Below are positions 4,662 to 51,702 of a DNA stretch of 64,000 bases, piece after piece. The position numbers were made by a program, and so were the translations under genes. The notes under the pieces were generated by a model, which was given only the letters and a program-made list of their open reading frames with translations, made no database searches and was not told the origin of the DNA. Source of the DNA: Timaviella obliquedivisa GSE-PSE-MK23-08B (GTDB lineage: Bacteria; Cyanobacteriota; Cyanobacteriia; Elainellales; Elainellaceae); assembly GCA_019358855.1 (NCBI GenBank), contig JAHHII010000002.1, forward strand, positions 250,690 through 314,689. The letters are read 5' to 3'. Position 1 is the first letter of the stretch. Each line of letters begins with the position of its first letter.

Positions 4662-5015
4662 GCGTAGCCGAATTGACCTAACTCCTAACCTCTTCCCTCG
4701 TTTCCTGCCTGCCCGTAGTTTTAGCTGTAGTAGCTAAAGGCTAGAAGCAAAATATAGCACTTATAGATTTATCTGTACTTATTTGAAGATATACAGAGTT
4801 TTTTCGCTGATCCGTCTAGGTTGTCATACTATACAGAAGATCTCTGCTACCTTACCCCATTAAAGCTGAGATGCAGAAGATTTCTCTCTAAATTTCTCTC
4901 CAATAAAAAAATCAGACGGCACCTATGCTGTTTTTGGCTTACCTACCAAATGGTTCCTATCGCGCTCAAGGAATCATTTAGTTTTGATGGAGCGCCTAAA
5001 TTAATAGGAGCAACT

Positions 5016-6728
5016 ATGTCACGTCGCCATAATCGCAACTTATTCTTCATTGCCTCTACCGGAGAGCTGCGTGGAGAAGTGAATAGACCCGCTACGCCTA
5101 GTGAATGTGAACGTGCTTTTCGCTTCTCGGAGATCGTCAGCGGAACTACCCCAGCACCATCAGACGAACTGTTGGAGGCGATCGCAGATGTCATGACGCA
5201 GGACGGTGATGATATAGACAGCCACATTCCCGCTGGCTTTACGTACCTTGCCCAGTTTGTAGACCATGATCTCACGCGCGATCGAACCGATGTTCCCTTT
5301 GGAACGCCTGTCACAGACCCGAGCCAGTTAAAGCAAGCCAGAAGCCCAGCATTGGATCTAGACTCTGTTTACGGAATTGGTCCTACCGTTGAACCAGGGT
5401 TTTACCAACCCGATGGAATTCGGCTCAATACAGGGAAAACTCAGGAGTCTTCCCCTCCAAACGCAGATCGACCTCTTGACGATTTTGATCTGCCCCGGAA
5501 AGGCGCGACGGCTGCCGAGCCAGAAGAAGTTCGGATGGCGCAGATACCCGATCCACGGAACGACGAAAACCTGGCGGTGGGTCAAACGCATCTGGCGTTT
5601 ATTCGATTTCACAATCGAGTTTGCGATCGTCTTGCCAACTCTTCGGTGCCAAGCATTATGCTCTTTGAGCGTGCCCGTGAAGCAGTCGTTAAGCATTACC
5701 AATGGATGCTGAAAACTGATTTTTTACCGCGGATTGTTGATCCAGCAATTGTGGACGATGTGTTTCACAATGGTCGCAAAATCTTTGAAGTTAAGGAGAC
5801 TGGATTTCCGACCATGCCGATAGAGTTCTCAGTTGCAGCCTATCGCTTGGGGCACTCTATGATTCGAGAAAAGTACGACTGGAACGCTGTGTTTAGCGAC
5901 GGTGGAGCGGTTGGTCAAATTGGTGATTTTGGCACCCTAATAAATTTATTTAGGTTTTCAGGTACAAGCGGTAATTTGTCTCCATCCGCCAGCGACGGTA
6001 GTGGTCCAAGCGACGTTAATAACCCATTAGATGGTAATTTTGAACGCCTTCCCACAAATTGGATTGCAGACTGGACACGGCTTTACAACTTTGTAGAAGA
6101 CGGCACACCTGAGCTTGCGCCCGAAACCACACTTAACTTTGCTCGCCCATTGGATACCCGTCTCACTAATCCTCTAAAAAATCTGCCCCTTGGTTCTTTC
6201 AATGCACGCGGGGGTGGGGGCACAGTGCCACCAATTCAGCTAAACCTGGCGTTTCGGAATCTCGCCAGAGCGCGCATGGTTGGGCTTGCCAGCGGGCAAG
6301 AAGTTGCCGCCTACATTGCCAACAAAATTCCGGGCACCCATGTCTTATCAAAAGATGAAATTTTGGGCGATGACCTCAACGCATTAAGCGAAACTTTGAA
6401 GACGGAACTGACGACTTCGACCCCTCTTTGGTTCTACATCCTTCGAGAAGCGTCTTTGAATCTAGATTCTGGAAAACTAGGAACGGGAAAGCTGGGTGCG
6501 GTTGGAGGCAGAATTGTGGCGGAGGTTTTCCATCGCGCCATAGAAGGCAGTCAAATATCGATTATTCGTGATCCGTCTTTCACGCCTTCGCTTGGCGCTA
6601 AACCAGGAGTGTTTCGGATGACTGACTTGCTTAGGGTTGCTTACGATGCGTCGAAGGGTGAGCTTAGACCGTTATCGCCAGATGCTCCTCGTCCTCCGGC
6701 GTTAAAAGTGTTGCCCAGTCAGGCATGA
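5016..6728 (+). CDS. Haem peroxidase, animal-peroxidase (peroxinectin-like) superfamily
   Basis: Peroxidase of the cyclooxygenase/myeloperoxidase superfamily, oxidising substrates with hydrogen peroxide through a bound haem. I choose the ATG at 5016 because AGGAG sits 5 bp upstream; an upstream TTG at 4821 would add 65 unlikely residues. The distal haem site is in TYLAQFVDHDLTRD, the conserved catalytic Arg region is PDPRNDENL, and the proximal His is in AAYRLGHSMIREKYDWN. The chain has 570 residues and no evident signal peptide. Related cyanobacterial proteins are often exported by other routes. It is monocistronic and convergent with nrtD across a perfect hairpin at 6765-6789. Substrate is unknown. 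Confidence 0.88.
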   Translation: MSRRHNRNLFFIASTGELRGEVNRPATPSECERAFRFSEIVSGTTPAPSDELLEAIADVMTQDGDDIDSHIPAGFTYLAQFVDHDLTRDRTDVPFGTPVTDPSQLKQARSPALDLDSVYGIGPTVEPGFYQPDGIRLNTGKTQESSPPNADRPLDDFDLPRKGATAAEPEEVRMAQIPDPRNDENLAVGQTHLAFIRFHNRVCDRLANSSVPSIMLFERAREAVVKHYQWMLKTDFLPRIVDPAIVDDVFHNGRKIFEVKETGFPTMPIEFSVAAYRLGHSMIREKYDWNAVFSDGGAVGQIGDFGTLINLFRFSGTSGNLSPSASDGSGPSDVNNPLDGNFERLPTNWIADWTRLYNFVEDGTPELAPETTLNFARPLDTRLTNPLKNLPLGSFNARGGGGTVPPIQLNLAFRNLARARMVGLASGQEVAAYIANKIPGTHVLSKDEILGDDLNALSETLKTELTTSTPLWFYILREASLNLDSGKLGTGKLGAVGGRIVAEVFHRAIEGSQISIIRDPSFTPSLGAKPGVFRMTDLLRVAYDASKGELRPLSPDAPRPPALKVLPSQA

Positions 6729-17578: not shown

Positions 17579-17652
17579 CGGGATGTAGCGCAGCTTGGTA
17601 GCGCGCCTGCTTTGGGAGCAGGATGTCGCAGGTTCGAATCCTGTCATCCCGA
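17579..17652 (+). tRNA. tRNA-Pro (anticodon UGG)
   Basis: 74 nt. The acceptor stem CGGGATG pairs with CATCCCG, discriminator A. The D arm contains AGCGCAGCTTGGTAGCGC, the anticodon arm is CCTGC-TTTGGGA-GCAGG with TGG, and the T arm is CGCAGGTTCGAATCCTG. CCA is not encoded. The 3' end points at an integrase gene 119 bp downstream, so this tRNA is the likely attachment site of the element to its right, with the gene regenerated by the element's copy of the 3' end. Confidence 0.97.
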
Positions 17653-17701
17653 CTTGGTTTCAGCGGTTTCAGCAGTGTCTGAGATTTCTGAAATCAAAAA
17701 T

Positions 17702-17771: not shown

Positions 17772-18890
17772 ATGGCAAATAATTTAGACCGGGCACGCCT
17801 TGCCAAAGAGCAGGCGATCGCCCAAATTAATTCTCGTCTTGAACTAAGCGCTGTCCCCGTGCGAGTTTACCTGAAAGGGATCAATGCGCTGGTTCTGCAA
17901 GCTACTTTGCCCAAAAAACCAGGGCAGGGAGAGGGGAAAAAACAGTATTGTTTAAGCCTTGGACTTGCAGCTAATGCTGATGGACTGAGGCGAATTGAAG
18001 CCGAGGCACAGCGTTTAGGCAGCTTGATTACACTAGGGCGATTTTCTTGGAGCCTGTATTTAGATGAGGTAGAACCAGAAGTACAAAAGGATTCTCCTAA
18101 AGCGATCGCCGAATGGATTGAAGCCTTTAAATGCAGCCACATGCAGCGCTACAAAATTCAAGAGCGCACCTGGCACGATACCTGGCAAATCACGTTTGAG
18201 AAATTGCCTCAGCAGTGCGAACTCAGTGAAGCCGCGATTCTGGCAGTCATTGAGCAAACTCAACCCCATACTCGGATGCGAGAATTGACCGTGCAGCGGC
18301 TGCAAGCGCTGATTAAATTTATGGAGTTTCCGCTAGATATCAAGCCTTATCAGGGGAACTACAATCAGCAGTCGCTTCAACCTCGCACTTTACCGAGCGA
18401 TGAATTAATTTTGAAGTGGCGAGACCAGATACCCAACAAGGGCTGGCGGGATGTCTTTGGGCTGCTAGCAACGTTTGGAATTCGCCCTCATGAAGCGTTC
18501 TTTTGTCGTTTTGTGGATGATTATAAATTAGAGGTCATGAGCGGCAAAACTAATCGCAGAATTGCTCGTGCTATTCATCCAGAGTGGGTAGAGAAGTGGA
18601 ACCTGCAAGCGTTTATTTTGCCTCATGTGAAGGGGCGTGTGCTACGGGATTATGGGCAGCGCTGTAGTTGCCAGTTCTGGCGTTATAAAGTGCCATTTGT
18701 GCCCTATGATTTACGCCATGCTTGGGCGATTCGAGCAACAGTCGTGATGCGCTTGCCCTATGCGATTACGGCTAAGGCGATGGGGCACTCCATCCAGGTT
18801 CACACAAACACCTATCACCGTTGGATTTCAGAGATGGTAGGCGACCAAGTGTATGACGAAATGGTATTAAATTTTGAGCGAAAAAGATGA
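17772..18890 (+). CDS. Tyrosine site-specific integrase
   Basis: Phage-type tyrosine recombinase that would integrate and excise the element at tRNA-Pro. The 372-residue protein has an N-terminal core-binding region and a C-terminal catalytic domain with Arg238 in FGIRPHEA, Arg315 in PYDLRHAWAIR (Tyr replacing the common first His), His339 in MGHS, and the nucleophile Tyr348 in NTYHRW. These are all residues needed for activity. ATG at 17772. It is convergent with the small gene at 18905 (14 bp between stops). The family is common in cyanobacterial islands next to tRNAs. Confidence 0.93.
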   Translation: MANNLDRARLAKEQAIAQINSRLELSAVPVRVYLKGINALVLQATLPKKPGQGEGKKQYCLSLGLAANADGLRRIEAEAQRLGSLITLGRFSWSLYLDEVEPEVQKDSPKAIAEWIEAFKCSHMQRYKIQERTWHDTWQITFEKLPQQCELSEAAILAVIEQTQPHTRMRELTVQRLQALIKFMEFPLDIKPYQGNYNQQSLQPRTLPSDELILKWRDQIPNKGWRDVFGLLATFGIRPHEAFFCRFVDDYKLEVMSGKTNRRIARAIHPEWVEKWNLQAFILPHVKGRVLRDYGQRCSCQFWRYKVPFVPYDLRHAWAIRATVVMRLPYAITAKAMGHSIQVHTNTYHRWISEMVGDQVYDEMVLNFERKR

Positions 18891-21691: not shown

Positions 21692-21809
21692 ATCTATAGT
21701 TGATAAGTGAGCGAAGGATCTGCCTTAAAATTCCCACTTTTGAGGGGGCGCAGCTTCCTGTACAGGTCCAATAGCTCTCCGATCACCTGCAAAAACAATT
21801 ATCTGTTTC

Positions 21810-21845
21810 GTGGCACAATATACCCTAGTCGTAATTTCGTGCCAC
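21810..21845. promoter_or_regulatory. Inverted repeat directly upstream of the 21851 gene
   Basis: GTGGCAC (21810-21816) and GTGCCAC (21839-21845) are reverse complements, each preceded by TTTC and followed by AA, with centres 29 bp apart. The right half ends 5 bp before the ATG at 21851, in the divergent region between two element genes, a plausible operator. Confidence 0.5.
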
Positions 21846-21850
21846 AAAAT

Positions 21851-22663
21851 ATGGGGAGAAAACCTAAGACCTCTGAAAAACGTAGAGTTCAGCTAAGGTT
21901 AAGTCCTCGAAGTGCAGCAATATTTGATGCTTATTCTTCTGATGAATTAAGTCAGATCATGGCGATCGCCCTCGACACCATTAAGCCTGGGTCAAAAATT
22001 ACGACAGTCCCCAGCGTCATCTTGCGCCCTGTGCAAGTTGTCACAGAGTCTATTGCTCGAATTAAAATCGATAAAGATTTGGTTTTAATATTTTTGCCTG
22101 AAAAGATAGAAGAGTTTCGATCGCTTGCCAAAAAACTGCACTATCAATGGATAGATTTTGCTTGGCGACGAACGGTTGAGGAGGATGTAGCGGTTGAGCG
22201 AGCTGCTGAGATCGGATATCGAATTATGGAGTTAGGCATCCCTGTGCAGGTGGACTGTGAGGAGGTTTGCCGCAAAATAATATCTGGCAAGTTTCAGATC
22301 GAGCCTCAACGGGTCATTAAAGTTTGCACATCCGGTGTTTACAAAGGGTGGCTAAGCTTCTCCTACCCTAAGGGAGAAGACTTTTACGATCGCATTATGC
22401 GAATAACAGCAGCAAAATATGCAAATGGCTCTATTCGTGTTCCCATCGAAAATTTTGCAGAAGTTGAAGATTTTGCAGAGATAGAGGGATTTGTGTTTAG
22501 TGAGGCAGCTCAAGAAGCTGTAAATAAGGCTAGGCATTTGATTGACTCTGCCCAAATCCTAGAAATTGCACCTTTAAAAGAACGAACTCAAAAGAAAAGG
22601 AATTCCAAAAAAGATGCAGGTGTTACAGCCGTTCCAGATCATCTTAAAGACGATACTGCTTGA
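21851..22663 (+). CDS. Hypothetical protein upstream of SNF2 helicase, 270 aa
   Basis: I use the ATG at 21851 (MGRKPKTSEKRRVQLRLSP); a GTG at 21707 would add 48 residues that span the inverted repeat. The N-terminus resembles a short basic RHH-like stretch. Later segments include LRPVQVVTESIARIKIDKDLVLIFLPEKIEEFRSL and WIDFAWRRTVEEDVAVERAAEIGYRIMELGIPVQVD, the latter seen in proteins encoded beside helicases of this type. It overlaps the helicase start by 50 bp, so the two are probably co-expressed and may act together. Function unknown. Confidence 0.65.
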   Translation: MGRKPKTSEKRRVQLRLSPRSAAIFDAYSSDELSQIMAIALDTIKPGSKITTVPSVILRPVQVVTESIARIKIDKDLVLIFLPEKIEEFRSLAKKLHYQWIDFAWRRTVEEDVAVERAAEIGYRIMELGIPVQVDCEEVCRKIISGKFQIEPQRVIKVCTSGVYKGWLSFSYPKGEDFYDRIMRITAAKYANGSIRVPIENFAEVEDFAEIEGFVFSEAAQEAVNKARHLIDSAQILEIAPLKERTQKKRNSKKDAGVTAVPDHLKDDTA

Positions 22664-24059
22664 CCATCAAGAAGAAGCGGTAGACAAATTTAAAGGGCTG
22701 CGCGTTGCTGGATTATTTATGGAGATGGGAACGGGAAAAACTCGTACCCTAATTGAGCTTGTAGCGCTTCGGCAACACAAGATTGACCACGTTATTTACT
22801 TCTGTCCAGTCAATCTCAAGAGTACAGTCGTTTATGAGCTAGAAAAACACATCGAAAATCCTAGTGTGTATATTTTTGACGATCGCACCAAACAAGGACG
22901 TATCCCTAAAGCATTCTTCTACGTGATTGGCATTGAATCCATTGGACAGAGCGATCGCATGACCTTGGCAGCAAATGAACTAATTACTGAATCTAGCTTC
23001 GTTGTCCTAGACGAGTCAGACACCTGCAAAAACCATGCCGCCATTCGGACTCGTCGAATTACAGCAATGGCATCACGCGCTAAATATAGGGCGATCGCCA
23101 CAGGTACAGCAGTTGGGGAAGGCGTTGTCGATTTGTATGCTCAGATGTATTTTCTGTCACCTGACATTTTAGGCTACAAATCCTTCTATTCTTTTGCTGC
23201 CAATCATTTGGAATACAGCGAGGAGTATAAAGGGTTAATTGTTCGTAGCCTGAATACCGATGTCATTGCTCGGAAAATTGAGCCATACGTCTACCAGGTC
23301 AAGAAAAGTGAGTGCTTAGATTTGCCCGATCGCCAATATCTCAGCCGCTACTTTTCAATGAGTAGAGCGCAGCAAAGCCTTTATGTCAGAGCCAAGGAAG
23401 AGATTCTGATGGTGGCTGAGGAAGAAATGGATAGCTATGTCATTTTCCGATTGTTTACGGCATTGCGGGAAATCGTATCGGGTTTTTGGAATCGAACGCC
23501 AGACCCTAACCCCAATCACCGATGGGCAGAACAGTTTGAGCCAGAAAAAATAATCGCAGATCACGATCGGGTTGCGCTATTGCAATCAGTCGTTCGTGAA
23601 ATTCCAGTAGACGAAAAGGTGATTATCTGGGTGAATTTTCACCACTGTGTTGATCAGATTGTAGCGGCGCTATCTGATGAATATGGAGAGCAGGCGATCG
23701 CCCAATATCACGGACGGACGGGCGATCGGGAAGCCGAAATTAGCCACTGGCGTAATCATGCTCGATTCCTCATCGCATCTGCTAAGTGCGGTGGACGAGG
23801 ACTAACACTGAATGAGTGCGCCTACACCATTTTCTATAACAACGATTTTCCTTATCGAGTTCGGGAACAGGCTGAAGCCAGGAATCACAGAATCGGGCAG
23901 ACGAGAAAGCCAACCTATATTGATCTGGTGTGCGAGAAAAGTATTGATAACCGAATATTTGTCGCTCTTAACAACAAAGAAAACTTGGTGCAGGCGTTCA
24001 AAAAAGAGATGGACAAACTAAAGAAAGGCGATCGAAAGACCGCATTAAAAAGGCTCTAA
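22614..24059 (+). CDS. SNF2-family DEAD/H-box helicase or translocase
   Basis: 481 residues. Walker A (motif I) is FMEMGTGKTRT (about 35-45), motif Ia region is YFCPVNLKST, motif II is VVLDESD (about 131-136), motif III is AIATGTAV, and the C-terminal motifs V/VI are SAKCGGRGLTLNECAYTI and EQAEARNHRIGQTRKP. The last is diagnostic of SNF2-type double-stranded DNA translocases. Phages use such enzymes in replication, recombination or control of modification. It heads a plus-strand run reaching 27164 that includes a degenerate paralogue and a PP-loop enzyme. Confidence 0.9.
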   Translation: MQVLQPFQIILKTILLDHQEEAVDKFKGLRVAGLFMEMGTGKTRTLIELVALRQHKIDHVIYFCPVNLKSTVVYELEKHIENPSVYIFDDRTKQGRIPKAFFYVIGIESIGQSDRMTLAANELITESSFVVLDESDTCKNHAAIRTRRITAMASRAKYRAIATGTAVGEGVVDLYAQMYFLSPDILGYKSFYSFAANHLEYSEEYKGLIVRSLNTDVIARKIEPYVYQVKKSECLDLPDRQYLSRYFSMSRAQQSLYVRAKEEILMVAEEEMDSYVIFRLFTALREIVSGFWNRTPDPNPNHRWAEQFEPEKIIADHDRVALLQSVVREIPVDEKVIIWVNFHHCVDQIVAALSDEYGEQAIAQYHGRTGDREAEISHWRNHARFLIASAKCGGRGLTLNECAYTIFYNNDFPYRVREQAEARNHRIGQTRKPTYIDLVCEKSIDNRIFVALNNKENLVQAFKKEMDKLKKGDRKTALKRL

Positions 24060-24132
24060 ACATATTACCCCAAACAGTTGACATAGTGATTTATTGTATC
24101 TATCTTAAAGGGTAGTGATTTATCGAAAGAAC

Positions 24133-24360
24133 ATGATCTCCAGGCAAGAATATAACGCGATCGACCCAGCCAGCCCAGAGCAACGCTCCCAATATGCGAG
24201 GCTCGTTTTAAACGAAATTAAGGAGACTCGCAGTGAGTTTATTGGCGATGCTGAACTCGGAATCGGTTTTATGGAGTACAACATTCGCCCCGTAGTTGAG
24301 TTCAGATGGGGTCTAAGCGGATGGGTCAAGCGCCTGTCTTTGCAGCCTTTTGTAGATTAG
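24133..24360 (+). CDS. Small hypothetical protein, 75 aa
   Basis: ATG at 24133 (MISRQEYNAIDPASPEQRSQ); a GTG at 24115 is also possible. No recognised domain. It starts 73 bp after the helicase stop and is followed after 9 bp by another small gene in the same direction, as is usual in phage early operons. Confidence 0.55.
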   Translation: MISRQEYNAIDPASPEQRSQYARLVLNEIKETRSEFIGDAELGIGFMEYNIRPVVEFRWGLSGWVKRLSLQPFVD

Positions 24361-24369
24361 GAGTTATTC

Positions 24370-24513
24370 GTGATTTTTTATAAGGATGGCAGTGAGTTAA
24401 ACAGGAACGGACAAAAAACAGATAGCAGTATTTTTAATATCTGCCGCGACCCAGAAGAGGTTAGAAGGCGGGTCGCACTGGCGATAGAGCAGGAGGCAGT
24501 TCATGCCTTCTAA
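24370..24513 (+). CDS. Small hypothetical protein, 47 aa
   Basis: GTG start at 24370 with AGGAG 6 to 7 bp upstream, reading VIFYKDGSELNRNGQKTDSS and then NICRDPEEVRRRVALAIEQE to a TAA at 24511. The stop overlaps the next gene's ATG (24503) by 11 bp, suggesting translational coupling. Too short for family assignment, but ribosome site and tight packing support it. Confidence 0.5.
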   Translation: MIFYKDGSELNRNGQKTDSSIFNICRDPEEVRRRVALAIEQEAVHAF

Positions 24514-24886
24514 AAAGCTCTCTAAAGTAGAAGCGATCGCCGTTGCCCGTGCAGCACGACAGGTGCCCAAAGGCGTGACGGCAGAACAATATCGGATGCG
24601 GCTAACCGATCGTGTAGCAGCATTGTGTCAAGCCCAAAACCCGATCGAACGGGGAGTAACCTACGCCTTGGGTGAGGCGATCGAGGCAAACGGTTACTTG
24701 CTACTCTACAAAATTCTTGATGCCCTAGGGTGTCGAATTATCAGCACCATGATCCATGCTGATGGCATCACGATTATGTGTCGCCACAAAACCTACGAGG
24801 GGCAGAGTCAATCCTCTTTGCTCCTCGAAATTATTCAGGACTGCATCGAAAATTTTGGAATTTTAGGGGGACTAAAAAATGACTAG
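24503..24886 (+). CDS. Hypothetical protein, 127 aa
   Basis: ATG preceded by AGGAGG at a good distance. The N-terminus is basic (MPSKKLSKVEAIAVARAARQ); the remainder is alpha/beta with ANGYLLLYKILDALGCRIIS. No known domain recognised. It overlaps both neighbours (11 bp before, 8 bp after) in the helicase operon. Confidence 0.6.
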   Translation: MPSKKLSKVEAIAVARAARQVPKGVTAEQYRMRLTDRVAALCQAQNPIERGVTYALGEAIEANGYLLLYKILDALGCRIISTMIHADGITIMCRHKTYEGQSQSSLLLEIIQDCIENFGILGGLKND

Positions 24887-25079
24887 AAATGTCAAGCTTA
24901 AAGCTGGAATTGCCATCACGATCGCCGATCAAAATGCTCCCCTTGGGGTAACGCCATCAGGGGCGGTGATCTTCGAGGTTCGCAATGTGCCTGATACTGT
25001 CATCATCCAGCAGGTTTGGCAAGCCTCTAGAAACAATGTAGCGGGATGCCTAGGGCACAGCTTTGACTGGGGCAGTTGA
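24879..25079 (+). CDS. Small hypothetical protein, 66 aa
   Basis: Starts MTRNVKLKAGIAITIADQNA and ends GCLGHSFDWGS. Beta-rich, no recognised family. Overlaps the previous gene by 8 bp and shares 4 bp with the next (TTGA, where the next gene begins with TTG). Confidence 0.55.
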   Translation: MTRNVKLKAGIAITIADQNAPLGVTPSGAVIFEVRNVPDTVIIQQVWQASRNNVAGCLGHSFDWGS

Positions 25080-26200
25080 AAGCTGCCCTGATCTCAAAAG
25101 ACTACGATCGCCGTCGTCAGTTTATTGAGCGTTTCTTGGTTAAGTCCAAGTCCCCACTAGCGATTTACATTTACCCCAAGAATCGAAAAAAAGAGTTTAG
25201 TCCTCCAGTCGTTCCAGGTTGCAGCATTAACTGTTTCACCTACGAGGATATGTTGAAGACGGATGAATGGCTAACGATCAATGCCCTAGTCAGCAAGGAT
25301 ACAGCGCTGATTCTAGACAACCCCAGCCGTTACCCCAAGATTACATCTACCAAAGTTTTAGCCTTGGAACGAATTGAAAAGATGTGTCAGGTTAAGGCGA
25401 TCGTAGATATTGTGCCTTTCACCCTTGCTATTCAATATCTCTATACGCCTTATTCCTATTTAGGTCGTGAGATTTTAGGCTATGCCCACTACTACGCATT
25501 TCGAGAAAATTATCACGAGATGGATGCAGCAGGCACAGTTCGGATGTCGCACGATTTTGATCTGTTAGCTGACAAGATAGCGCCAGTCACCGAGATTGAT
25601 TACGATCGCTTCCTTTGCCAAAACAGAGAGGCGATCGAGGTTAAATCAACTCCACAGGAACTAGAGAATTATCAAGCGCTGAAAGATGAGTGCTTCGCAG
25701 CCAAAGACTTTAGCCCAAGAGTTGTTATCACTAAGCTGGCGGACTTGGCTCATGCTTTCGATAGTCGTCTACGGGCAATGGTCGATCTGGTGGCAAAACT
25801 GCAAGGCAAAACAGTTGTGCTGACCAATCTCAAAGACTATGCTAAGCGTGCCGAAAAGATAGCCAAAGATGCAGGGCTTGAGATTACTGCTACATCCTAT
25901 CAGCTAGGCTTTCAAGGCAATTTTGATAACTGCATTTATCTAGAAAGCCCGATCGTAAAATCCTACTTCATGCTGGATGCTGAATCGCGGTTAAGTATGG
26001 ACTGCAAGGTTTTTCATATTGTGGGAGATACCAAGGTTGACCAGTATCTCTACACCAACCTACTTAGCGAAATCACCCAAATAGACCAATTTACTCAGGA
26101 GTTGGCTCGTGCAAAAAGACGGCAAACCAGCCCGCAAAATTTACCTGCAAAAAAATGTGCTTCAGGCGGCACAAGAGAGAATCAGTTGGCTCTTTTCTAA
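25076..26200 (+). CDS. Degenerate SNF2-helicase-like protein lacking a Walker A motif
   Basis: 374 residues. Segment LILDNPSRYPKITSTKVLAL aligns by eye with the motif II region of the intact helicase at 22614 (VVLDESDTCKNHAAIRTRRI), with the catalytic DES changed to DNP. The following VDIVPFTLAIQYLYTPYSYL matches its motif III region. The C-terminal half has TVVLTNLKDYAKRAEKIAKD like a helicase lobe 2. The N-terminus (MKAALISKDYDRRRQFIERF) has no GKT loop. It is probably a non-catalytic partner derived from SNF2. TTG start overlaps the upstream gene. Its last 92 bp overlap the PP-loop gene. Confidence 0.6.
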   Translation: MKAALISKDYDRRRQFIERFLVKSKSPLAIYIYPKNRKKEFSPPVVPGCSINCFTYEDMLKTDEWLTINALVSKDTALILDNPSRYPKITSTKVLALERIEKMCQVKAIVDIVPFTLAIQYLYTPYSYLGREILGYAHYYAFRENYHEMDAAGTVRMSHDFDLLADKIAPVTEIDYDRFLCQNREAIEVKSTPQELENYQALKDECFAAKDFSPRVVITKLADLAHAFDSRLRAMVDLVAKLQGKTVVLTNLKDYAKRAEKIAKDAGLEITATSYQLGFQGNFDNCIYLESPIVKSYFMLDAESRLSMDCKVFHIVGDTKVDQYLYTNLLSEITQIDQFTQELARAKRRQTSPQNLPAKKCASGGTRENQLALF

Positions 26201-27164
26201 CTTTAAGGAAGTCGTGGTTAGTGTCTCTGGCGGCAAAGATTCAAGCGTAGCTTTCGAGCTGGCATGGCGACACGCGCAAGAGCTAGGGCGGGAAGTTCAT
26301 GTGTTTTTCCTCGATCAGGAGGCTGAGTATCAAAGTACGATCGCCATCGTGAGGAGTATTTACGATCGCCCTGGTGTAATCCCCCACTGGTGGCAATCTC
26401 CTTTCAAAACGACAAATGCTACCAGCTATGAAGAGCCGCTGCTCTATGCCTGGGGAGAAGGGGAGGAATGGATGCGGGAAAAGGAATCGGATTCATTTCA
26501 AGCCAAAGTTCCGTTAAAGGAGCATGAACAAAACCGGGATACCTTCTACCACATGGTGGAGTATGCCGAGGCTCAGTGGGGTGAAAGCACTGCTCTGCTA
26601 ATTGGGCTACGTTCCGAGGAGTCGTTGAATCGATATGGTGCGGTCACCCGCAATCCAGGAATTGAGAATGTTAAATGGACTTCTAAATCGAGCGGAAAGG
26701 CGATTAAGTGCTACCCCATTTACGATTGGACATTTGAAGACATTTGGACATATATCGGCAATGAGTCTATTCCCTACAACCGCGTCTACGACTGGATGTA
26801 TGTCAAGGGCTTTAATATCCCAGAGATGCGAGTTTCCAACCTCGTTCACGAAAAAGCTTTCCGCTGCCTCTCGACGCTCCATGAGTTTGAGCCAGACACC
26901 TACGATCGCCTGCTCAAGCGACTAAAGGGCATTCACGTTGCTGCCCGATATGCCGATGAACAAACCGTGTTTAGTGCCAAAAAGTTGCCACAGGCGTTTG
27001 AGAATTGGCTAGATTATCGAGATTTTTTGCTCTCGACCCTGCCCAGAGAAGTGCGATCGCCTCCCATGCTCCACCTTTCAGGGCGATCGCCAAATCATAA
27101 AGTGTTTCACAAATCTCGTCTGGCAGACCTGCCAAATGTTTCCATCTCGGAATGTGACCAATGA
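26109..27164 (+). CDS. PP-loop ATPase, PAPS-reductase/IbrA-like (DUF3440-type)
   Basis: 351 residues, GTG start. The N-terminal PP-loop SVSGGKDSS (about 38-46) binds ATP for adenylation. VHVFFLDQEAEYQSTI, WWQSPFKTTNATSYEEPLLY and ECW-like tracts followed by IKCYPIYDWTFEDIWTYI fit PAPS-reductase-family proteins of the IbrA type, known as partners of ParB-like IbrB in Escherichia coli gene regulation. It is not QueC: the QueC zinc cysteines are absent. DndC, of DNA phosphorothioation, is a more distant relative. It shares 92 bp with the pseudo-helicase, and its last 194 bp lie opposite a minus-strand gene. Confidence 0.8.
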   Translation: MQKDGKPARKIYLQKNVLQAAQERISWLFSNFKEVVVSVSGGKDSSVAFELAWRHAQELGREVHVFFLDQEAEYQSTIAIVRSIYDRPGVIPHWWQSPFKTTNATSYEEPLLYAWGEGEEWMREKESDSFQAKVPLKEHEQNRDTFYHMVEYAEAQWGESTALLIGLRSEESLNRYGAVTRNPGIENVKWTSKSSGKAIKCYPIYDWTFEDIWTYIGNESIPYNRVYDWMYVKGFNIPEMRVSNLVHEKAFRCLSTLHEFEPDTYDRLLKRLKGIHVAARYADEQTVFSAKKLPQAFENWLDYRDFLLSTLPREVRSPPMLHLSGRSPNHKVFHKSRLADLPNVSISECDQ

Positions 27165-41078: not shown

Positions 41079-41858
41079 CTAGAATGCCCCTGCCGCAATC
41101 ATCCGAAACCTCAGCCAGTCGATTCCTTCCTGGATTAGTTCTTGGGTCTGCTCAACAGACAATCCTTGCTGAGTGGCGATCGCCTCGTCAGGCAAGTTGT
41201 CCAAAAAGCGGCTCATGAGGCAGGAATAGTAAGGCTCGGATAATAACGAGAGATGCTGGCGTAGGGCTTTAATGCGATCGCTTGCCTCATCTGCCTCACT
41301 CGCATCACAGACGGCAAAGTGATGAGTGTTCTCTTCGAGAGAAACAACAGGCTTGCGGTGCATTGCCTGTTTAATCGTCCCCCACGTCCTACGGGCTTCC
41401 GTCTCGCTGGAGCATCTCGGCTTCTTCAGGAGAAGGGACACCGCAATTTCGTCAATGGATTGATTTCTACCAGCAGCTATAAATTCACGATGGATTTTCG
41501 CCACCGTGCCATGAAATTCAATCCAGCGGCGCGGAATTTTGTAGCTACCGCGCCAGTTGTCTCGCAGGAAGTGCAATATCTCACCTTTGATATAGAGCAC
41601 AGCAAATGAACTAAATGCCACGTTACGCGCGGGATCAAAGCGTTGAATGGCTTTGTCTAGCCCAATCACACCGCACTGAATTAACTCATCCAAGTCTTCG
41701 CCACAACAATCTTTAAGTTGGGTGGCGATCGTCACCACTAGCCCGTTATTTTGCTTGATCAAGCTGCTTCTCAAATGCTTGACCTTTGGCGAGTCTGTAC
41801 CCTTCGCTCGATGATACGCCTCCAGCATTTCGGCATTGTTCGTTTTTTTAATTACCAT
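41079..41858 (-). CDS. Phage-encoded sigma-70 family factor
   Basis: 259 residues from ATG 41858; a TTG at 42002 would extend it into the upstream gene. Region 2 is clear: NGLVVTIATQLKDCCGEDLD, ELIQCGVIGLDKAIQRFDP, FSSFAVLYIKGEILHFLRDN, with the promoter-melting aromatics. Region 3 and a region 4-like helix-turn-helix (LPDEAIATQQGLSVEQTQEL) follow. The group resembles SigF/SigB-type alternative factors. Located between early/middle genes and late genes, it likely drives the late virion operon. Promoter specificity cannot be read here. Confidence 0.88.
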   Translation of the reverse strand: MVIKKTNNAEMLEAYHRAKGTDSPKVKHLRSSLIKQNNGLVVTIATQLKDCCGEDLDELIQCGVIGLDKAIQRFDPARNVAFSSFAVLYIKGEILHFLRDNWRGSYKIPRRWIEFHGTVAKIHREFIAAGRNQSIDEIAVSLLLKKPRCSSETEARRTWGTIKQAMHRKPVVSLEENTHHFAVCDASEADEASDRIKALRQHLSLLSEPYYSCLMSRFLDNLPDEAIATQQGLSVEQTQELIQEGIDWLRFRMIAAGAF

Positions 41859-41979
41859 TGATGAGTTTTGCCGAAGCGTCCAGGAATTTACTACTTCTAA
41901 AATGGGAAAAAAAGTTGTCTTTTCTATCAGAATTGCAAAAAAATTTTCCTCAACAAATTCCGCCGCAGACTCAAGGTAT

Positions 41980-42459
41980 TTAACCGAGAGCAGTTCTTCC
42001 AATTTTTTGCAATCGTTCCAACGCCTTCGCCATATCGTCTAGGGTTTGGTAGCTAATCGCTTTCTCTTCATCGCTCCCATTCCCCTTTCTTGCGTCCTCA
42101 ATTTGACCTTGTAGTCGAGACGAGAGCAGTATTAAACCTGCTTTAGCTGCGTTGTAGCACCTTGCATCCCACTCCGCTAAATCGCCTGCTAGTGCGGTTG
42201 ATTTTTGTTCTTGACGCTTATTAGAAACAGTTTGGAGGTATCGCTCTGCCTCAACTTTCCAATTCTCTGAAGCCGCTTTTTCTCGCAAATAAGACGGTGC
42301 GCAACCGTGCGTCTCTGCAAGCTGCTCAAGAGTCGGTCGAGACGCTTCATCCGGTGCGTGGATGTATTCCTCTTTAATCTTCTGCCAGTTGTATTTTGCC
42401 AAGGAGTTCCAAAACCGACACCGTGTCGGATCTTGTCGGAAAATTCCCACGATCGCCAC
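41980..42459 (-). CDS. Terminase-small-subunit-like helix-turn-helix protein, 159 aa
   Basis: The N-terminal part has KIKEEYIHAPDEASRPTLEQ, LAETHGCAPSYLREKAASENW, a helix-turn-helix in the style of phage small terminase subunits (stepwise domain, then 'ENW' turn). A helical body and coil (DEEKAISYQTLDDMAKALER) follow. Small terminases bind the packaging start site. No large subunit is adjacent, so a transcription-regulator role is equally possible. Divergent from the SAP-like genes across a dyad at 42513-42565. Confidence 0.55.
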   Translation of the reverse strand: MAIVGIFRQDPTRCRFWNSLAKYNWQKIKEEYIHAPDEASRPTLEQLAETHGCAPSYLREKAASENWKVEAERYLQTVSNKRQEQKSTALAGDLAEWDARCYNAAKAGLILLSSRLQGQIEDARKGNGSDEEKAISYQTLDDMAKALERLQKIGRTALG

Positions 42460-44292: not shown

Positions 44293-45582
44293 ATGCAAGA
44301 CTTAATTGAAACAGGGCTGAGCGAGGAAGTCAAACCTCCGCCAGACCATCCACGAAAGAACCCGCTGATTGGAAGGCTAATCAGCGATCGAGAAGCGAGT
44401 GATACCGCAGCCACTCGAACCCAGCTTGAAAAATTTGACGACATTCAAACCGCTCACCGGAACTTAGACCCACTGCGAACCGATGAGATTTACCTATTCG
44501 GCATCTCGGTAAATATTGGAGTTGGACGGCTCACCATTGACTGTGGTGAGATTGAGATTAACCCCGAACTGAGCGAGGCGATCGCGTCTGCTAATGGACG
44601 TTTTACCATTACCTTACCTATCTTCAAAGACCTGCTGAAGAAGGGCAGTAAGCTAGCAACTCGTCGCCGGAAGATTCAAAAGTTTCTACGGTTTGCTAAC
44701 CCTTATTGGTACGTTTCAAAAAAAGATCTGGTTGCAGTGCGTGACGAAATCTTCAAGACCGTTGAAAGCGATCGTGATCAAGATAAGGGAATGTTGCAAC
44801 TCTTGAATGAGTTGAAAGCAGAGGCGATGGCAGGATACGACAACGCTTTCGCTGATTTCCTTTCGGAGCTAGAAGCCGTATTGCTGAAGGCAAGTCCATT
44901 TAGCCGCGATCGCATTGATGAACTGCTAGAACGCTATGCCGAGCAATTCCCAACCCGGCAAGAGGTGCTAGAGAATTTCAACGTTGTGTTGGAAGGTCCG
45001 ATCAAGATTCCAAGTCTGGTGGAAGAAGCCACTCGCAATGCTGACCTGGCAGAGCAGTTGGAACGAGAAGAACAGGCGCAGTTGAAGCGAATGAAAACTG
45101 AGCAAGCTGTCAACGTTCAGGTTAAAGAGCAGGCAGCGATCGCAGAGCTGCAAGCCTACTGGATTAAATCAGTTCAAGAATCCTTTGCCGTGGGAATTCG
45201 CAATGCTCAGGACGATGCTTATGGATTAATTGCTGACCTGTTGAGCGCGATCGAGCAGGTTGATGATCCGGCGCGGGTCAACGGCAATCTCAAGAAACGG
45301 TTGGACGGCAAACTTCGTGACCTGGAAACAGCCGTCAATCAGGTTGCTTCTGTGAATGAAGGTGGACTGGATACCAGCCTCCAAAGCTTTGCTGAGCAGG
45401 TACGACAGCTCAAGGTTTTAACGACTTCGGCGGTTGCTCCAGAACGGTTGCAGGAACGGCTAGAAGACTTGCGATCGCGCATGACCGAGGAGCTTGAGCA
45501 GGTTTTTACCAGTGATAAAAGAGGGCACAAAGCCCTTGCTAAATGGTTAATTTACGAGGAAGAAACTGATGTCACACTTTAG
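44293..45582 (+). CDS. Coiled-coil protein of the DUF1257-AAA operon, 429 aa
   Basis: Not a named domain that I am sure of. N-terminal alpha/beta part with IYLFGISVNIGVGRLTIDCG and FTITLPIFKDLLKKGSKLAT, then FLRFANPYWYVSKKDLVAVR, then long coiled coils (EEATRNADLAEQLEREEQAQ, RLQERLEDLRSRMTEELEQV). Its end overlaps the DUF1257 gene by 14 bp. It begins the four-gene operon with DUF1257, DUF2997 and AAA+ genes and is probably their substrate or adaptor. Confidence 0.7.
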   Translation: MQDLIETGLSEEVKPPPDHPRKNPLIGRLISDREASDTAATRTQLEKFDDIQTAHRNLDPLRTDEIYLFGISVNIGVGRLTIDCGEIEINPELSEAIASANGRFTITLPIFKDLLKKGSKLATRRRKIQKFLRFANPYWYVSKKDLVAVRDEIFKTVESDRDQDKGMLQLLNELKAEAMAGYDNAFADFLSELEAVLLKASPFSRDRIDELLERYAEQFPTRQEVLENFNVVLEGPIKIPSLVEEATRNADLAEQLEREEQAQLKRMKTEQAVNVQVKEQAAIAELQAYWIKSVQESFAVGIRNAQDDAYGLIADLLSAIEQVDDPARVNGNLKKRLDGKLRDLETAVNQVASVNEGGLDTSLQSFAEQVRQLKVLTTSAVAPERLQERLEDLRSRMTEELEQVFTSDKRGHKALAKWLIYEEETDVTL

Positions 45583-46024
45583 CCAAATCAAGACCAAGAT
45601 GACCAATGAACGGGCGATCGTCGCGGCGTTGGAAGAGATGGGTTACAAGGTTGAGGTTCATCAAACCGCTAAGAAGCTCAACAGTCGATATTCGGCTGCA
45701 CGGCGGCAAAAAATGAAGGCAAACATCATTCTTCGAGAAACAGCCGTTGATTTTGGCTTGCTCAAAACTGAGGATGGCACCTATGAGGTGATTGGAGACA
45801 TGATGTATTTCCAGATTCAGATGATCGCCCAGTCGCTGCCGATGCACTATGCCAAGCAGGTGATTATTCAGCAGGCGGAAGAGTTAGGAGATGAATATGT
45901 CGTTGTCCCAAACTTTGTAAATAGCCAGCTTCAGGGCTACACCATCACCGTCGATAAAACACCCCAACTGGCGATCGGGCAGTCCAGCGTGACCAATCAA
46001 ATATTTGTCGGAGGGTCTTACTAA
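45569..46024 (+). CDS. DUF1257 (Ycf35-like) protein
   Basis: 151 residues. MSHFSQIKTKMTNERAIVAA, LEEMGYKVEVHQT and KANIILRETAVDFGLLKTED then GTYEVIGDM are the family's conserved parts, shared with plastid Ycf35. The family's biochemical role is not established. In cyanobacteria and in mobile elements it is coded beside DUF2997 and a Ycf46-like ATPase, as here. Overlaps the gene before by 14 bp and touches the next by 1 bp (TAATG). Confidence 0.82.
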   Translation: MSHFSQIKTKMTNERAIVAALEEMGYKVEVHQTAKKLNSRYSAARRQKMKANIILRETAVDFGLLKTEDGTYEVIGDMMYFQIQMIAQSLPMHYAKQVIIQQAEELGDEYVVVPNFVNSQLQGYTITVDKTPQLAIGQSSVTNQIFVGGSY

Positions 46025-46285: not shown

Positions 46286-48049
46286 ATGACTGCTTTCAAT
46301 CGTATTCGAGATTTCTTTGGTGCAGCATTACCCGTCGTCGCACTGGACTCTCCTAGCGCTGAAGAACTGACCACCATTGAAAAAATTCATGTCGAGGTGG
46401 GCAAGCGGCTAAAGCTGCCCGTCTATGTCTTCGACCTGGCAGCCGGACTGCGCCAAGTGGTTTCGGTTCAGGAAGCCACCTACTTTTTGGAAGATGGTAG
46501 CGAGTTTGAGGGCGAAGTATTTCAGCACTCTACAGGGTTTTGGACGGGCGATCCTGAGAACGGTCTTGAGGAAAAGCAGCTTCGCCAAGAAAACCGCAAC
46601 GTTAGCGGTATCGACCTCAAACCGATCGCCACTCAGTTCCGCAATCCGTTAATCGATATCTGCAAACACATTGAGCAGTTCGATAAAAAAGGGATCTTCG
46701 TTCTAATCGATTTGCATCATTTTCTAAGTGGCGATCGCACCGTTTGGGAGTTCCGTCGCTCCATCAAACACCTCGCCACAGCACTGAAACAATCCCATAA
46801 GCGGGTGGTGTTGCTAGGCAGCGATATTCGGCTAGATGCCGATTTCTCTGGGCTGGTTTACGACGCGCATAATATGTTGCCTGAACTGGCAGAGATTCAA
46901 GAGGCAGTCAACCTTTGCATCAACGATATGGAGCAGGAGTTTACGGCGATCGGGGGCAAAAATAAGTTCAAGGTGCAGCTCGACGGCGAGGAACGGGAGG
47001 CGATTTTTACAGCCTGTCGAGGGTTAAGCATTGAGGAGGCATTGAACGCACTGCGAATTGATATGCGATCGCGCCGTCGTGTCGATGGAGCCACAGCAGC
47101 AGCCGTAACATTGTTCAAGATTGAGAAACTGGAGAAGCTGAACATTCGCTTTTCTCATCCTCCAGACGTTGTGCCAGGTGGAGTTCAGGAGTTCAAAGCA
47201 TGGGTGCAACAGCGAAAAAGATTGTTCAATGCAGTCGTATCTAAGCAGCCGATCAAGCTGAAATTACCCGTTCCTAGAGGTTGTTTAATTGTTGGGCCAT
47301 CAGGAACAGGTAAGAGCCTATTAGCAAAAACTTTGGGCAACTGTTGGAATATCCCCATTCTGCAAGTCGATATTGGTTCATTTTATTCCAGCCTGGTAGG
47401 AGAAACCGAGGCGAACTTTAGGCGGTTTACGCGCATGGTGGATCACATTGGACCTTGTGTTGTACTGCTGGATGAGGTTGAAAAAGCGCTCGCTGGCGTT
47501 GGCGGGCAAAGTAACGACAGTGGCGTGAGCCAGCGACTGTTCGGTTCATTGCTGACCTGGATGAACGATAAAACCTCACCATGCTTTGTCGTGGCAACTG
47601 CCAACAATATTGAAGCGCTGCCGCCCGAATTCAAGCGTAAAGGACGCTTTGACGAAATCTGGTTTGTGGACACTCCTAACCAGGCAGAGCGGCGCGAGAT
47701 TCTGACCGTGCATCTCTCCCGGCATGGTGTGGAGATGAGCGATCGCCACCTCGATATCCTCGTCAAGCTCACTGACGAATTTGTTGGGGCAGAACTGGGG
47801 CAGGTGACCAACGAAGCTGCGATCGTTGCCGCCGAAGCTGGACGTGATGAGATTCTCTTGTCCGACATGGAAGAGGCGATCGCTCAGACGGTTCCATTGG
47901 CGCGATCGCAGGCTGACACGTTGGCTAATCTGAGGGAATGGGCAACGACAGCGGCTCGTCCTGCTAGTAAGGCTGAAGCAGTGCAGGAGGCGATCGCCCA
48001 GCCTATGAACGGCAAGCGCGGTAAGCCTCAGATGTTGATCGAAGATTAA
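46286..48049 (+). CDS. Ycf46-like AAA+ ATPase
   Basis: 587 residues. The N-terminal half has the Ycf46-type domain (RLKLPVYVFDLAAGLRQVVS, NPLIDICKHIEQFDKKGIFVLID, KRVVLLGSD). From about 330 the AAA+ core: PRGCLIVGPSGTGKSLLAKT (Walker A), FYSSLVGETEANFRR, CVVLLDEVEKA (Walker B), sensor and arginine finger in RKGRFDEIWFVDTP. Chromosomal/plastid Ycf46 is linked to photosynthetic acclimation in cyanobacteria. Here it is on a prophage, in operon with DUF1257/DUF2997, pointing to an ATP-driven remodelling complex. Confidence 0.9.
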   Translation: MTAFNRIRDFFGAALPVVALDSPSAEELTTIEKIHVEVGKRLKLPVYVFDLAAGLRQVVSVQEATYFLEDGSEFEGEVFQHSTGFWTGDPENGLEEKQLRQENRNVSGIDLKPIATQFRNPLIDICKHIEQFDKKGIFVLIDLHHFLSGDRTVWEFRRSIKHLATALKQSHKRVVLLGSDIRLDADFSGLVYDAHNMLPELAEIQEAVNLCINDMEQEFTAIGGKNKFKVQLDGEEREAIFTACRGLSIEEALNALRIDMRSRRRVDGATAAAVTLFKIEKLEKLNIRFSHPPDVVPGGVQEFKAWVQQRKRLFNAVVSKQPIKLKLPVPRGCLIVGPSGTGKSLLAKTLGNCWNIPILQVDIGSFYSSLVGETEANFRRFTRMVDHIGPCVVLLDEVEKALAGVGGQSNDSGVSQRLFGSLLTWMNDKTSPCFVVATANNIEALPPEFKRKGRFDEIWFVDTPNQAERREILTVHLSRHGVEMSDRHLDILVKLTDEFVGAELGQVTNEAAIVAAEAGRDEILLSDMEEAIAQTVPLARSQADTLANLREWATTAARPASKAEAVQEAIAQPMNGKRGKPQMLIED

Positions 48050-49433: not shown

Positions 49434-50345
49434 TCAGGCTTTTGTCGGGTACAGCTCGCAGCCCAACGCTTTAAGTGACTGAATATGATGCCGCCAGTTC
49501 AGCATATTCATCCGGCTTTCATAGGCTGCCAACTGTACCGCCTTATCTGCACCAACTGCCGACTCATGATCACTGCCTAATTCATATCGAAAGTCCAGTG
49601 GATAGGGCGAGAACGTTTTGCCATCACACCGGGCTTTGTGGCTATCTGCCCAACGAATACCCACCAGCCAACTCGACGAGTCACCAGAGTTAATAGGCAT
49701 GGCGTTTAGCCACTCATTCGGCGTTAAGCCCAGCAAATGAATCCACAGATGCGGATATTTGCGATGTCGTTCCCAAGCTGTGGCTACCAGTTGCTTGCGA
49801 GTTGCTCGGTCAGCCTGTACAACGTTGCCGAAGCAGATGCGATCGTAGCGCTCGGCAAGGTAATCAAAATAGTCCCACCCATCGTTAAACGGGTGATAAA
49901 CAGGAATCGGTCGCAGCCCCATTCCTTCCAGCTTCGCGCGGGTTTTAATTTTGTTCTCCCGTCCGCCCTGGTCTAGTTCAATGAAGCCCCAGCACTTATC
50001 GCCTAACCGTCGATAAATGGCGATGTACTGTTCTAATAGTTCATCAAATCCGTCGATTTCATTTGGTGGCAATGCCAGCGCTTGATCCATGTTGCAGCCG
50101 TGAGCCTTGGCGTGTTGCTGGGTCAAGTGGAAGATGCCGGAGTCGATGAAAACCTTTTTGCCCCGATCGCACCATTGTTCAATCAAATCGACGGCACCCG
50201 CATTTTGCAATTCATTCACCGCAATCAGCAGATGATCATAGAGCGGTTCAGCTAGTGCCAGCCGCCCTGTTCCTGATGCCAGGAAGTAAACATTTTCTTC
50301 AGATGGGTCAAAGGTGCCACCGCCTGTTTTAAGCACGTTGGACAC
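49434..50345 (-). CDS. DpdA-like tRNA-guanine-transglycosylase-fold DNA modification enzyme
   Basis: 303 residues from the GTG at 50345 (AGGGGG upstream); a TTG at 50393 adds 16. YFLASGTGRLALAEPL, VFIDSGIFHLTQQH, WGFIELDQGG, IPVYHPFNDGWDYFDYLAER, CFGNVV, HLLGLTPNEW, INSGDSSSW follow the pattern of phage DpdA proteins, which insert 7-deazaguanine bases into DNA in place of guanine. The Asp in DSG is the presumed catalytic/recognition residue. It overlaps the ParB-like gene by 17 bp and sits with QueE and two QueD homologues. Strong family fit by eye. Confidence 0.8.
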   Translation of the reverse strand: MSNVLKTGGGTFDPSEENVYFLASGTGRLALAEPLYDHLLIAVNELQNAGAVDLIEQWCDRGKKVFIDSGIFHLTQQHAKAHGCNMDQALALPPNEIDGFDELLEQYIAIYRRLGDKCWGFIELDQGGRENKIKTRAKLEGMGLRPIPVYHPFNDGWDYFDYLAERYDRICFGNVVQADRATRKQLVATAWERHRKYPHLWIHLLGLTPNEWLNAMPINSGDSSSWLVGIRWADSHKARCDGKTFSPYPLDFRYELGSDHESAVGADKAVQLAAYESRMNMLNWRHHIQSLKALGCELYPTKA

Positions 50346-51198: not shown

Positions 51199-51258
51199 GC
51201 CGCAGCCTCCTAGTTAGAGTATTCATTTCTTACCTCGTAGATGCGCTCTAAAATTCCC

Positions 51259-51702
51259 TCAGCGAACCAGGCTTGTGACCCGTTCAGGCGACTCGAAAAC
51301 ATCTACTCGCAGTAATTTAATATGGGGGTCAAGCTGAATTTTGGCAAAATACAGGCACAAATCTTCTGTAGTGCCGCCAGCCAAATCTTGATGATCATTA
51401 ATTAACTCAGGTAGCTCAGAACAAGAATACTTGAGCAAGTTTTCTTGTTCAATCATGTCTAAGCCATACATACCAGAGATGCTTCTTTCTGCTTGCAAAT
51501 GCAGCGTCACCCGAAAATCATGCCAATGGTCATCCTGCCAAATGGGCGGGTTAAAGTGCCTGCGCCTGAATGAGTGGCTAATCTGATAGTGAAATATCAC
51601 AGGGCACTCATGGGCGCAGCCTTGAGAATAGGGTACGGAAAGCCCTCGCAATGCCTCTGGGTAGTGCGATCGCGCCTTAAAGCTTGGCTTGAAGTTTTCC
51701 AT
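51259..51702 (-). CDS. QueD-like protein, copy 2
   Basis: 147 residues. FRRRHFNPP and DDHWHDFRVTLHLQA form the zinc-His set of the QueD/PTPS superfamily. MYGLDMIEQENLLKYSCSEL and GTTEDLCLYF, LLRVDVFESPERV follow, as in QueD. The canonical catalytic Cys before the HGH motif is not seen; Trp fills that zone. Its ATG at 51702 overlaps the QueE stop. One of the two QueD-like proteins may be the enzyme and the other a variant with a different product or role. Confidence 0.72.
   Translation of the reverse strand: MENFKPSFKARSHYPEALRGLSVPYSQGCAHECPVIFHYQISHSFRRRHFNPPIWQDDHWHDFRVTLHLQAERSISGMYGLDMIEQENLLKYSCSELPELINDHQDLAGGTTEDLCLYFAKIQLDPHIKLLRVDVFESPERVTSLVR

Follow-up and report, generated by a model that had tools for sequence, protein, structure and literature searches.

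A viral operon of SNF2, inactive SNF2-like and IbrA-like PP-loop genes, and its prophage-borne variant in the cyanobacterium Timaviella obliquedivisa

In a 64,000-nucleotide stretch of the genome of Timaviella obliquedivisa GSE-PSE-MK23-08B (assembly GCA_019358855.1, contig JAHHII010000002.1, positions 250,690 to 314,689; hereafter the window, whose numbering is used throughout unless another locus is named), a run of genes at 22614-27164 encodes an SNF2 translocase, an SNF2 paralogue without ATPase motifs and a PP-loop enzyme related to IbrA. Comparison with viral relatives revealed a conserved operon with the order accessory protein, SNF2, pseudo-SNF2, IbrA-like PP-loop, IbrB-like ParB, and, judged by gene content and order, the window run is a prophage-borne variant of this operon from which the ParB gene has been lost. 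The architecture is well supported; the chemistry of the operon we infer. Our preferred reading, to which we give an even chance, is a phage DNA-modification machine, in which SNF2 or a Csf complex would deliver a core of dead SNF2, PP-loop and ParB proteins to DNA.

The active SNF2 translocase (22614-24059, plus strand, 481 amino acids) matched Pfam SNF2-rel_dom (E = 1e-13) and Helicase_C (1e-9) and the DNA helicase family PHROG_62 (1.2e-92), and the Walker A, DE-box and motif VI of an SNF2 ATPase are all intact, being legible as GTGKT, DES and QAEARNHRIGQ. The gene that follows at 25076-26200 (plus strand, 374 amino acids), whose TTG start agrees with the start of its homologues, encodes a product with no match in Pfam, PHROGs, NCBIfam or PADLOC. 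Its relationship to SNF2 emerged from a phmmer comparison with the SNF2 of a relative (4e-12), and from alignment of the profile of its family, which we call family A, with a profile of 21 SNF2 proteins (hhalign Prob 98.1, E = 1e-13, 296 columns across both lobes). An AlphaFold2 model of family A, computed from four pseudo-SNF2 rows and zero SNF2 rows and of modest confidence (mean pLDDT 62), gave XPB and SNF2 remodellers as the best Foldseek matches (E = 1e-8) and aligned by VIA-align with Snf2h through residues 1-322 (282 aligned, Z 15.3, root-mean-square deviation (rmsd) 5.1). The two RecA-like lobes of the SNF2 family are thus recovered by both hhalign and VIA-align. An earlier reading made from the sequence alone (the sequence-only reading) had described an intact SNF2 translocase, a paralogue lacking Walker A and with DES changed to DNP, and an IbrA-like PP-loop protein overlapping the latter by 92 bp, and had proposed a Foldseek comparison of the 25076 product with SNF2 lobes; all three descriptions held, and the comparison returned a helicase fold.

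Walker A and the DE-box, both required for ATP hydrolysis, are found in none of the five family A proteins, and the motif VI arginines are missing from the window protein; because of the first two losses the 25076 product is, as its motifs read, a pseudo-SNF2, that is, an inactive rather than an active member of the SNF2 family. The DES position reads DNP in the window and ENP in three relatives, and the DE-box as a whole is replaced by a conserved (E/D)NP(S/T)RYP in four of the five proteins, that of contig L025 deviating. Other replacement motifs are conserved too, ENPSRYPKITSTK and ESPIVKSYF among them, and the family holds further invariant residues of its own. Since the replacement motif is conserved and other residues have become invariant, family A looks repurposed rather than decayed. 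Identity to the window protein is 55% in L005, 51% in L008 and 44% in L022, with L025 as the fourth viral relative; the one family A pair for which the ratio of non-synonymous to synonymous substitution (dN/dS) could be computed gave 0.40.

The gene order with family A recurs in L005, L008, L022 and L025, viral contigs that are independent of each other, so the co-occurrence of SNF2, pseudo-SNF2 and PP-loop homologues, on which the sequence-only reading had staked its proposal, was confirmed in the neighbourhoods of viral relatives. That reading envisaged a complex in which one helicase is catalytic, a second is structural and a PP-loop enzyme activates a substrate; the arrangement of an active and a degenerate SNF2 with a PP-loop enzyme is indeed conserved, but the proposal omitted both the accessory gene at 21707-22663 and the lost IbrB/ParB. 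Each of the other four family A loci has ParB, which is missing from the window copy, and no ParB open reading frame (ORF) lies in the 15.5-kb stretch around the window run, leaving IbrA there without its partner; a search of the window's own genome with the IbrB profile at E 0.01 was empty, a result that shows little without a positive control. The PP-loop tail that precedes ParB in relatives is diverged and shortened in the window copy. Because its ParB partner has been lost, the window copy would be either a reduced variant or one disabled at the ParB step; it may work with another ParB, for example that at 50329-51198, or be partly disabled. GNAT acetyltransferase genes lie inside the cassette in three viral loci (L005 6516-6914, L008 9053-9490 and L006 3288-3704). 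We considered GNAT as a core part and rejected it: outside these three loci, where it is strong, the match is weak or missing, and the window has none.

In L006 and other loci a different protein, family B, occupies the slot between SNF2 and the PP-loop gene. Its profile links are weak (Prob 74 to SNF2 and 73 to family A), but its AlphaFold2 model is good (pLDDT 85.8) and matched SNF2 ATPases over its full length (275 of 287 residues, Z 17.9, rmsd 3.7, to INO80). We had entertained the idea that the ORF at L006 5506 was an unrelated protein, and abandoned it when profile and structure comparison placed it in family B. Walker A is absent from all 34 family B proteins scored (>250 bits), in which the DE-box is mostly NE; in contrast to both pseudo-SNF2 families, it is present in 31 of 32 SNF2 proteins (>350 bits and >380 amino acids). 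The closest family B pairs are under purifying selection (dN/dS 0.10, 0.18 and 0.26), values for distant pairs being saturated. Searching with family B alone as the query gave 44 loci, found through short peptide patterns that miss distant members; the PP-loop gene comes next, overlapping, and is followed by ParB in 43 of the 44, the last being cut by a contig edge, and SNF2 lies upstream in 22. One virus (L006, also L147, IMGVR_UViG_3300025154_000052) carries both cassettes in tandem at L006 603-9619: the first reads SNF2, family B pseudo-SNF2, PP-loop and ParB, and after it come another PP-loop and ParB, which belong to the family A clade.

The PP-loop gene of the window (26109-27164, plus strand), which overlaps the pseudo-SNF2 ORF by 92 bp, encodes an N-type ATP pyrophosphatase with the hallmarks of IbrA: an intact SGGKDS motif together with PAPS_reduct (E = 7e-19) and DUF3440 (5e-11) domains in Pfam, and a match to PHROG_2302 (5e-91). 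SGGKDS is invariant across 91 PP-loop proteins save for one position at 98%, and the window protein retains every column conserved at 90% or above. The catalytic C-terminal cysteine of the 3'-phosphoadenosine 5'-phosphosulfate (PAPS) reductase CysH is lacking, and no cysteine column is conserved across the 91 proteins, the highest reaching 46%; within clades, a cysteine column is held by 32 of 36 family B partners and by at most three of five in the family A clade. Since neither the family nor the family A clade has a conserved cysteine, sulfur transfer is unlikely for the window clade. The absence of a family-wide cysteine also led us to reject PAPS reduction as the role of the enzyme. The operon might nevertheless be no more than an ordinary phage helicase beside a PAPS reductase of sulfur metabolism, and the second SNF2 a duplicate in decay; PHROGs does class the PP-loop family as the auxiliary metabolic gene PAPS reductase. 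We regard this as very improbable, for the cysteine is wanting as described (the 32 of 36 in the family B clade notwithstanding) and the pseudo-SNF2 families show conservation, purifying selection and a fixed place, grounds on which we also rejected a decaying pseudogene. The reaction to expect by default of an N-type ATP pyrophosphatase is to adenylate an acceptor, as argued for CasCysH in PMC8175902.

A tree of 117 PP-loop proteins, from which L001 and L023 were left out as repeats of the window, placed all 36 family B partners in one clade (support 100) and grouped the five family A partners with the second PP-loop of L006 (support 96), alongside which there is no family A gene. The clades match the pseudo-SNF2 families, and therefore PP-loop and pseudo-SNF2, on this phylogeny, travel together. 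Among 80 viral loci retrieved with the PP-loop profile, the stretches taken held SNF2 in 15, pseudo-SNF2 in 10 and both in six. PP-loop relatives occur in 215 of 50,697 phage records, and in two of 386 cyanobacterial genomes, the window's own and G390, where the 12.6 kb retrieved hold PP-loop and ParB but neither SNF2 nor pseudo-SNF2. In six cultured-phage neighbourhoods ParB lies beside the PP-loop gene in five (FCV-1, CHPC1230, AQ113, PYS40 and Nebkiss; not Rasputia) and SNF2 upstream of it in three (FCV-1, AQ113 and PYS40), pseudo-SNF2 being found in none; gene 102 of Nebkiss, annotated as a helicase, gave no SNF2 match by phmmer. Relatives of ParB in the PDB include Noc/ParB proteins (5e-8) and free serine kinases (3e-3), and a nucleotide-using role is therefore plausible for it.

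A small methyltransferase with an invariant DPPW motif accompanies family B in 34 of 35 distinct loci, the exception (L119) beginning at a contig edge, and is also found directly upstream of PP-loop genes without SNF2, L053, L063 and L090 among them. Its profile is closest in the PDB to DpnA (7e-11), CcrM (2e-9) and MboIIA (2e-7). In the alignment motif IV comes ahead of motif I, which is the order of the beta class, and we assign it, from these similarities, as a beta-class DNA amino-methyltransferase.

Most surprising of the results was that, among family B loci, type IV CRISPR genes can take the place of SNF2. Where SNF2 is absent, csf1, csf2 and csf3 are usually nearby, with NCBIfam E-values of 2e-6, 4e-15 and 2e-18, respectively, in L136 and of 9e-16 (csf2) and 2e-16 (csf3) in L032, no csf match reaching the curated cut-off and csf2 of L115 giving E 0.028. 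For a count of the exchange, a distinct family B locus needed flanks of no less than 4 kb on the upstream side and 2.5 kb on the downstream side, which 28 of the 35 had (the other seven were set aside; near-copies remain): 15 have SNF2 only, 11 csf only, none both and two neither (Fisher p 3.6e-6, for loci that are not independent, because the family B tree shows clustering). Run on 34 whole records, a csf2 model matched 11 and no SNF2-type one, and the SNF2 profile was strong in SNF2-type records, matching among csf records only that of L127, weakly (45 bits) and elsewhere in the record. On the family B tree the SNF2 label changes five times, and well-supported branches force at least two SNF2 and at least three csf changes. 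Because of these several changes the exchange is, as far as the tree indicates, not one split but repeated switching. Some of the loci counted had also served to build the profiles for csf, the methyltransferase and the accessory protein; the independent checks are those against NCBIfam and the PDB. Of the 35 distinct loci, 12 have csf, and a second, CysH-like PP-loop is found in nine of those 12; a CysH-like protein is described as accompanying the csf genes of type IV-B systems (PMC8175902, PMC10848311). Virus-borne csf adjoins pseudo-SNF2, PP-loop, ParB and methyltransferase genes in L122, L123, L127, L133, L136, L138, L141, L143 and others.

In the DNA-modification machine that we prefer, the dead SNF2 would be a DNA-binding scaffold for the PP-loop/ParB enzyme pair, as inactive SNF2 domains in DndH and PglZ have been proposed to bind DNA or nucleotides (PMC10853773, PMC12839542). 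SNF2 or the Csf ribonucleoprotein would bring this core to phage DNA, or move it along, and the PP-loop enzyme would adenylate an acceptor, leading to attachment of a group. The machine would modify viral DNA, protection or control of phage genes probably being the purpose. Among the substrates put forward in the sequence-only reading (nucleotide, tRNA or DNA base), the balance leans towards DNA, given that relatives have a methyltransferase and an SNF2 or Csf partner. Several findings weigh against this proposal: the methyltransferase is absent from all five whole family A records, and neither its profile nor that of GNAT has a match in the window prophage; the prophage ParB at 50329-51198 scores 14 bits with the IbrB profile and is 24 kb away; the csf matches fall short of the NCBIfam cut-off and the family A model is of modest confidence, as noted above; CmoA, of a phage system compared below, is found in none of 34 records; and IbrA and IbrB are annotated in phage records as 'co-activator of prophage gene expression'.

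For many PP-loop enzymes the substrate is tRNA, and the enzyme could instead modify tRNA or another RNA, like TilS or ThiI, while the SNF2 proteins act elsewhere. Csf complexes do bind RNA (PMC8175902), but double-stranded DNA is what SNF2 proteins work on, and DNA adenine methyltransferases are the nearest to the linked methyltransferase; RNA modification seems to us improbable. The co-activator label of the phage records speaks for another alternative, a gene-regulation module in which IbrA/IbrB and SNF2 act on phage transcription: SNF2 would work on RNA polymerase as RapA does, and PP-loop/ParB would be the co-activator. The SNF2 family is described as including RapA-like proteins. A 2002 paper on ibrAB of E. 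coli reportedly dealt with activation of prophage eib genes. A purely transcriptional role, however, leaves unexplained the methyltransferase of 34 of 35 family B loci and the SNF2/csf exchange, and DNA modification could itself cause an effect on transcription, and we consider regulation rather unlikely.

Among the five window proteins scanned with PADLOC, the models nearest to SNF2 were the defence helicases ZorD (7e-30) and DpdE (5e-18). This proximity would suit conflict between elements, in which a prophage would use the operon to attack or block competing phages and plasmids, in defence or counter-defence, the sensor being SNF2 or Csf and the effector PP-loop/ParB; type IV systems are tied to competition among mobile elements (PMC8175902) and ParB-fold proteins can be nucleases (PMC5512222). 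Pfam, however, recognised no nuclease domain in the operon, which is moreover carried by viruses and adjoins terminase and portal genes in phage FCV-1. Such a role is a minority possibility in our estimate, somewhat ahead of regulation. Zorya, DISARM and BREX showed only helicase and weak PP-loop resemblances among the same five proteins.

The sequence-only reading knew of no named system with these parts, and we likewise found none described in the literature searched: the operon architecture is real, conserved and undescribed there, although a 2013 survey of DNA-modification operons may mention related ones. The PP-loop and ParB genes are themselves the IbrA/IbrB prophage pair, which occurs alone or with SNF2 in cultured phages, whereas the six neighbourhoods examined have no pseudo-SNF2 and the window copy no IbrB. 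Dnd phosphorothioation likewise combines a PP-loop ATPase (DndC), a ParB-fold protein (DndB) and an inactive SNF2 (DndH) in one system (PMC10853773), but DndC has cysteines and an Fe-S cluster, and the window clade has no conserved cysteine and lacks the DndC cluster; the similarity of the window PP-loop to DndC is weak (3e-8, PADLOC), and the operon has a separate active SNF2. The Cmo system of Synechococcus phage S-B43 (CmoA, CmoX, CmoY and ParBc) is a precedent for the operon in joining a methyltransferase and an AMP-forming ligase, often with ParB, on phage DNA (PMC12783734). It differs in that the operon has a beta-class amino-methyltransferase (in family B only), SNF2 and pseudo-SNF2; with CmoA in none of the 34 records, Cmo chemistry is not shared, and we rejected carboxy-S-adenosylmethionine (Cx-SAM) chemistry. 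Type IV-B CRISPR-Cas shares csf and a CysH-like PP-loop with family B loci, CasCysH also being without the catalytic cysteine (PMC8175902), but the viral csf genes are joined to pseudo-SNF2, IbrA, IbrB and methyltransferase, and the window has SNF2 instead: the csf2 model finds none in the window's virus record (G449), and csf profiles none in the prophage. Finally, the similarity of the window SNF2 to DpdE recalls the Dpd 7-deazaguanine system, and the prophage has QueD-, QueE-, ParB- and TGT-like genes, but these lie 22 kb away and the operon has no DpdA transglycosylase, the nearest TGT-like (tRNA-guanine transglycosylase) gene being at 49434-50393.

The SNF2-linked accessory protein of the window (21707-22663, plus strand), presumably HARP-like by resemblance, has no Pfam match above the cut-off, and its gene overlaps SNF2 by 50 bp. 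Matches to its profile lie beside SNF2 in L006, L008, L022, L029-L031, L033, L064, L075 and L080, and in L005 the domain is fused to the SNF2 N-terminus; the L005 SNF2 (4794-6519) is itself in two frames, through a frameshift or sequencing error. The sequence-only reading counted four small genes between SNF2 and pseudo-SNF2; they are present, but were not conserved in the relatives compared. All are on the plus strand: 24115-24360 (81 amino acids, no match in relatives), 24370-24513 (47 amino acids, GTG start, 11-bp overlap with the next, read by eye), 24503-24886 (127 amino acids, its sole match in IMG/VR being the prophage's own record) and 24879-25079 (66 amino acids, overlapping its neighbours by 8 and 4 bp). 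Compared with 12 loci, the ORFs at 24115, 24503 and 24879 matched window copies only (the 47-amino-acid ORF was outside the comparison), and the small ORFs therefore look local to the prophage and outside the conserved operon, which they may replace or disturb in the window.

The element carrying the run is a tailed-phage prophage of about 101 kb in tRNA-Pro, with the run near its left end. The left attachment site (17627-17655, plus strand) is the 29-bp 3' end of tRNA-Pro (17579-17653), which overlaps it; a perfect repeat, found by pattern search of the same genome (reversed-pattern control, 0), lies about 101 kb away on the same contig, outside the window (G000:C2:369275-369303). The integrase gene (17772-18890, plus strand; PHROG_1, E = 1e-6) follows downstream of the tRNA, and the 97,552-bp IMG/VR record UViG_3300035018_000013, which begins at this integrase (17772), is identical to the element. 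Genes for a major head protein (2.5e-9), portal (4.5e-18), baseplate wedge subunit (5e-14) and terminase large subunit (4e-15) are present. The window further holds a gene like a phage RNA polymerase sigma factor (41079-42002, minus strand; PHROG_351, E = 2e-25) and an AAA+ ATPase (46286-48049, plus strand; Pfam AAA, E = 5e-26) with a DUF1257 gene upstream (45569-46024). At 49434-52334 (minus strand) are clustered a TGT/DpdA-like gene (PHROG_887, E = 6e-22), a ParB-like gene (PHROG_620), a QueD-like PTPS gene, weak and slightly under the Pfam cut-off, and a radical SAM gene that would be QueE-like by position. Going by this cluster, the prophage probably makes 7-deazaguanine-modified DNA.

Family A was not found in the 50,697 phage records, nor family B in phages or plasmids; family A gave candidate stretches in genome_contigs, none confirmed, and neither family has a sequence match in the PDB. 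Among the 386 cyanobacterial genomes family A occurs in one, the window's own, and family B in none, the latter search having no positive control and so showing little. The window host is thus the sole cellular genome found with either family, and may therefore be a route to a living copy. We offer guided or tracked DNA modification as a concrete hypothesis and, more tentatively, propose that the operon is an undescribed modular viral writer that hypermodifies DNA, made of a dead SNF2, a PP-loop adenylating enzyme, a ParB-fold nucleotide user and, in family B, an adenine-type methyltransferase, steered by an SNF2 translocase or a type IV-B CRISPR-like ribonucleoprotein. The paired live and dead SNF2 proteins add a reusable part, and a core that swaps its SNF2 motor for Csf provides a direct, testable link from IbrA/IbrB to type IV-B CRISPR. 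If the proposal is true, type IV-B complexes would help to mark nucleic acid chemically, and so would the CysH-like protein without cysteine that accompanies them.

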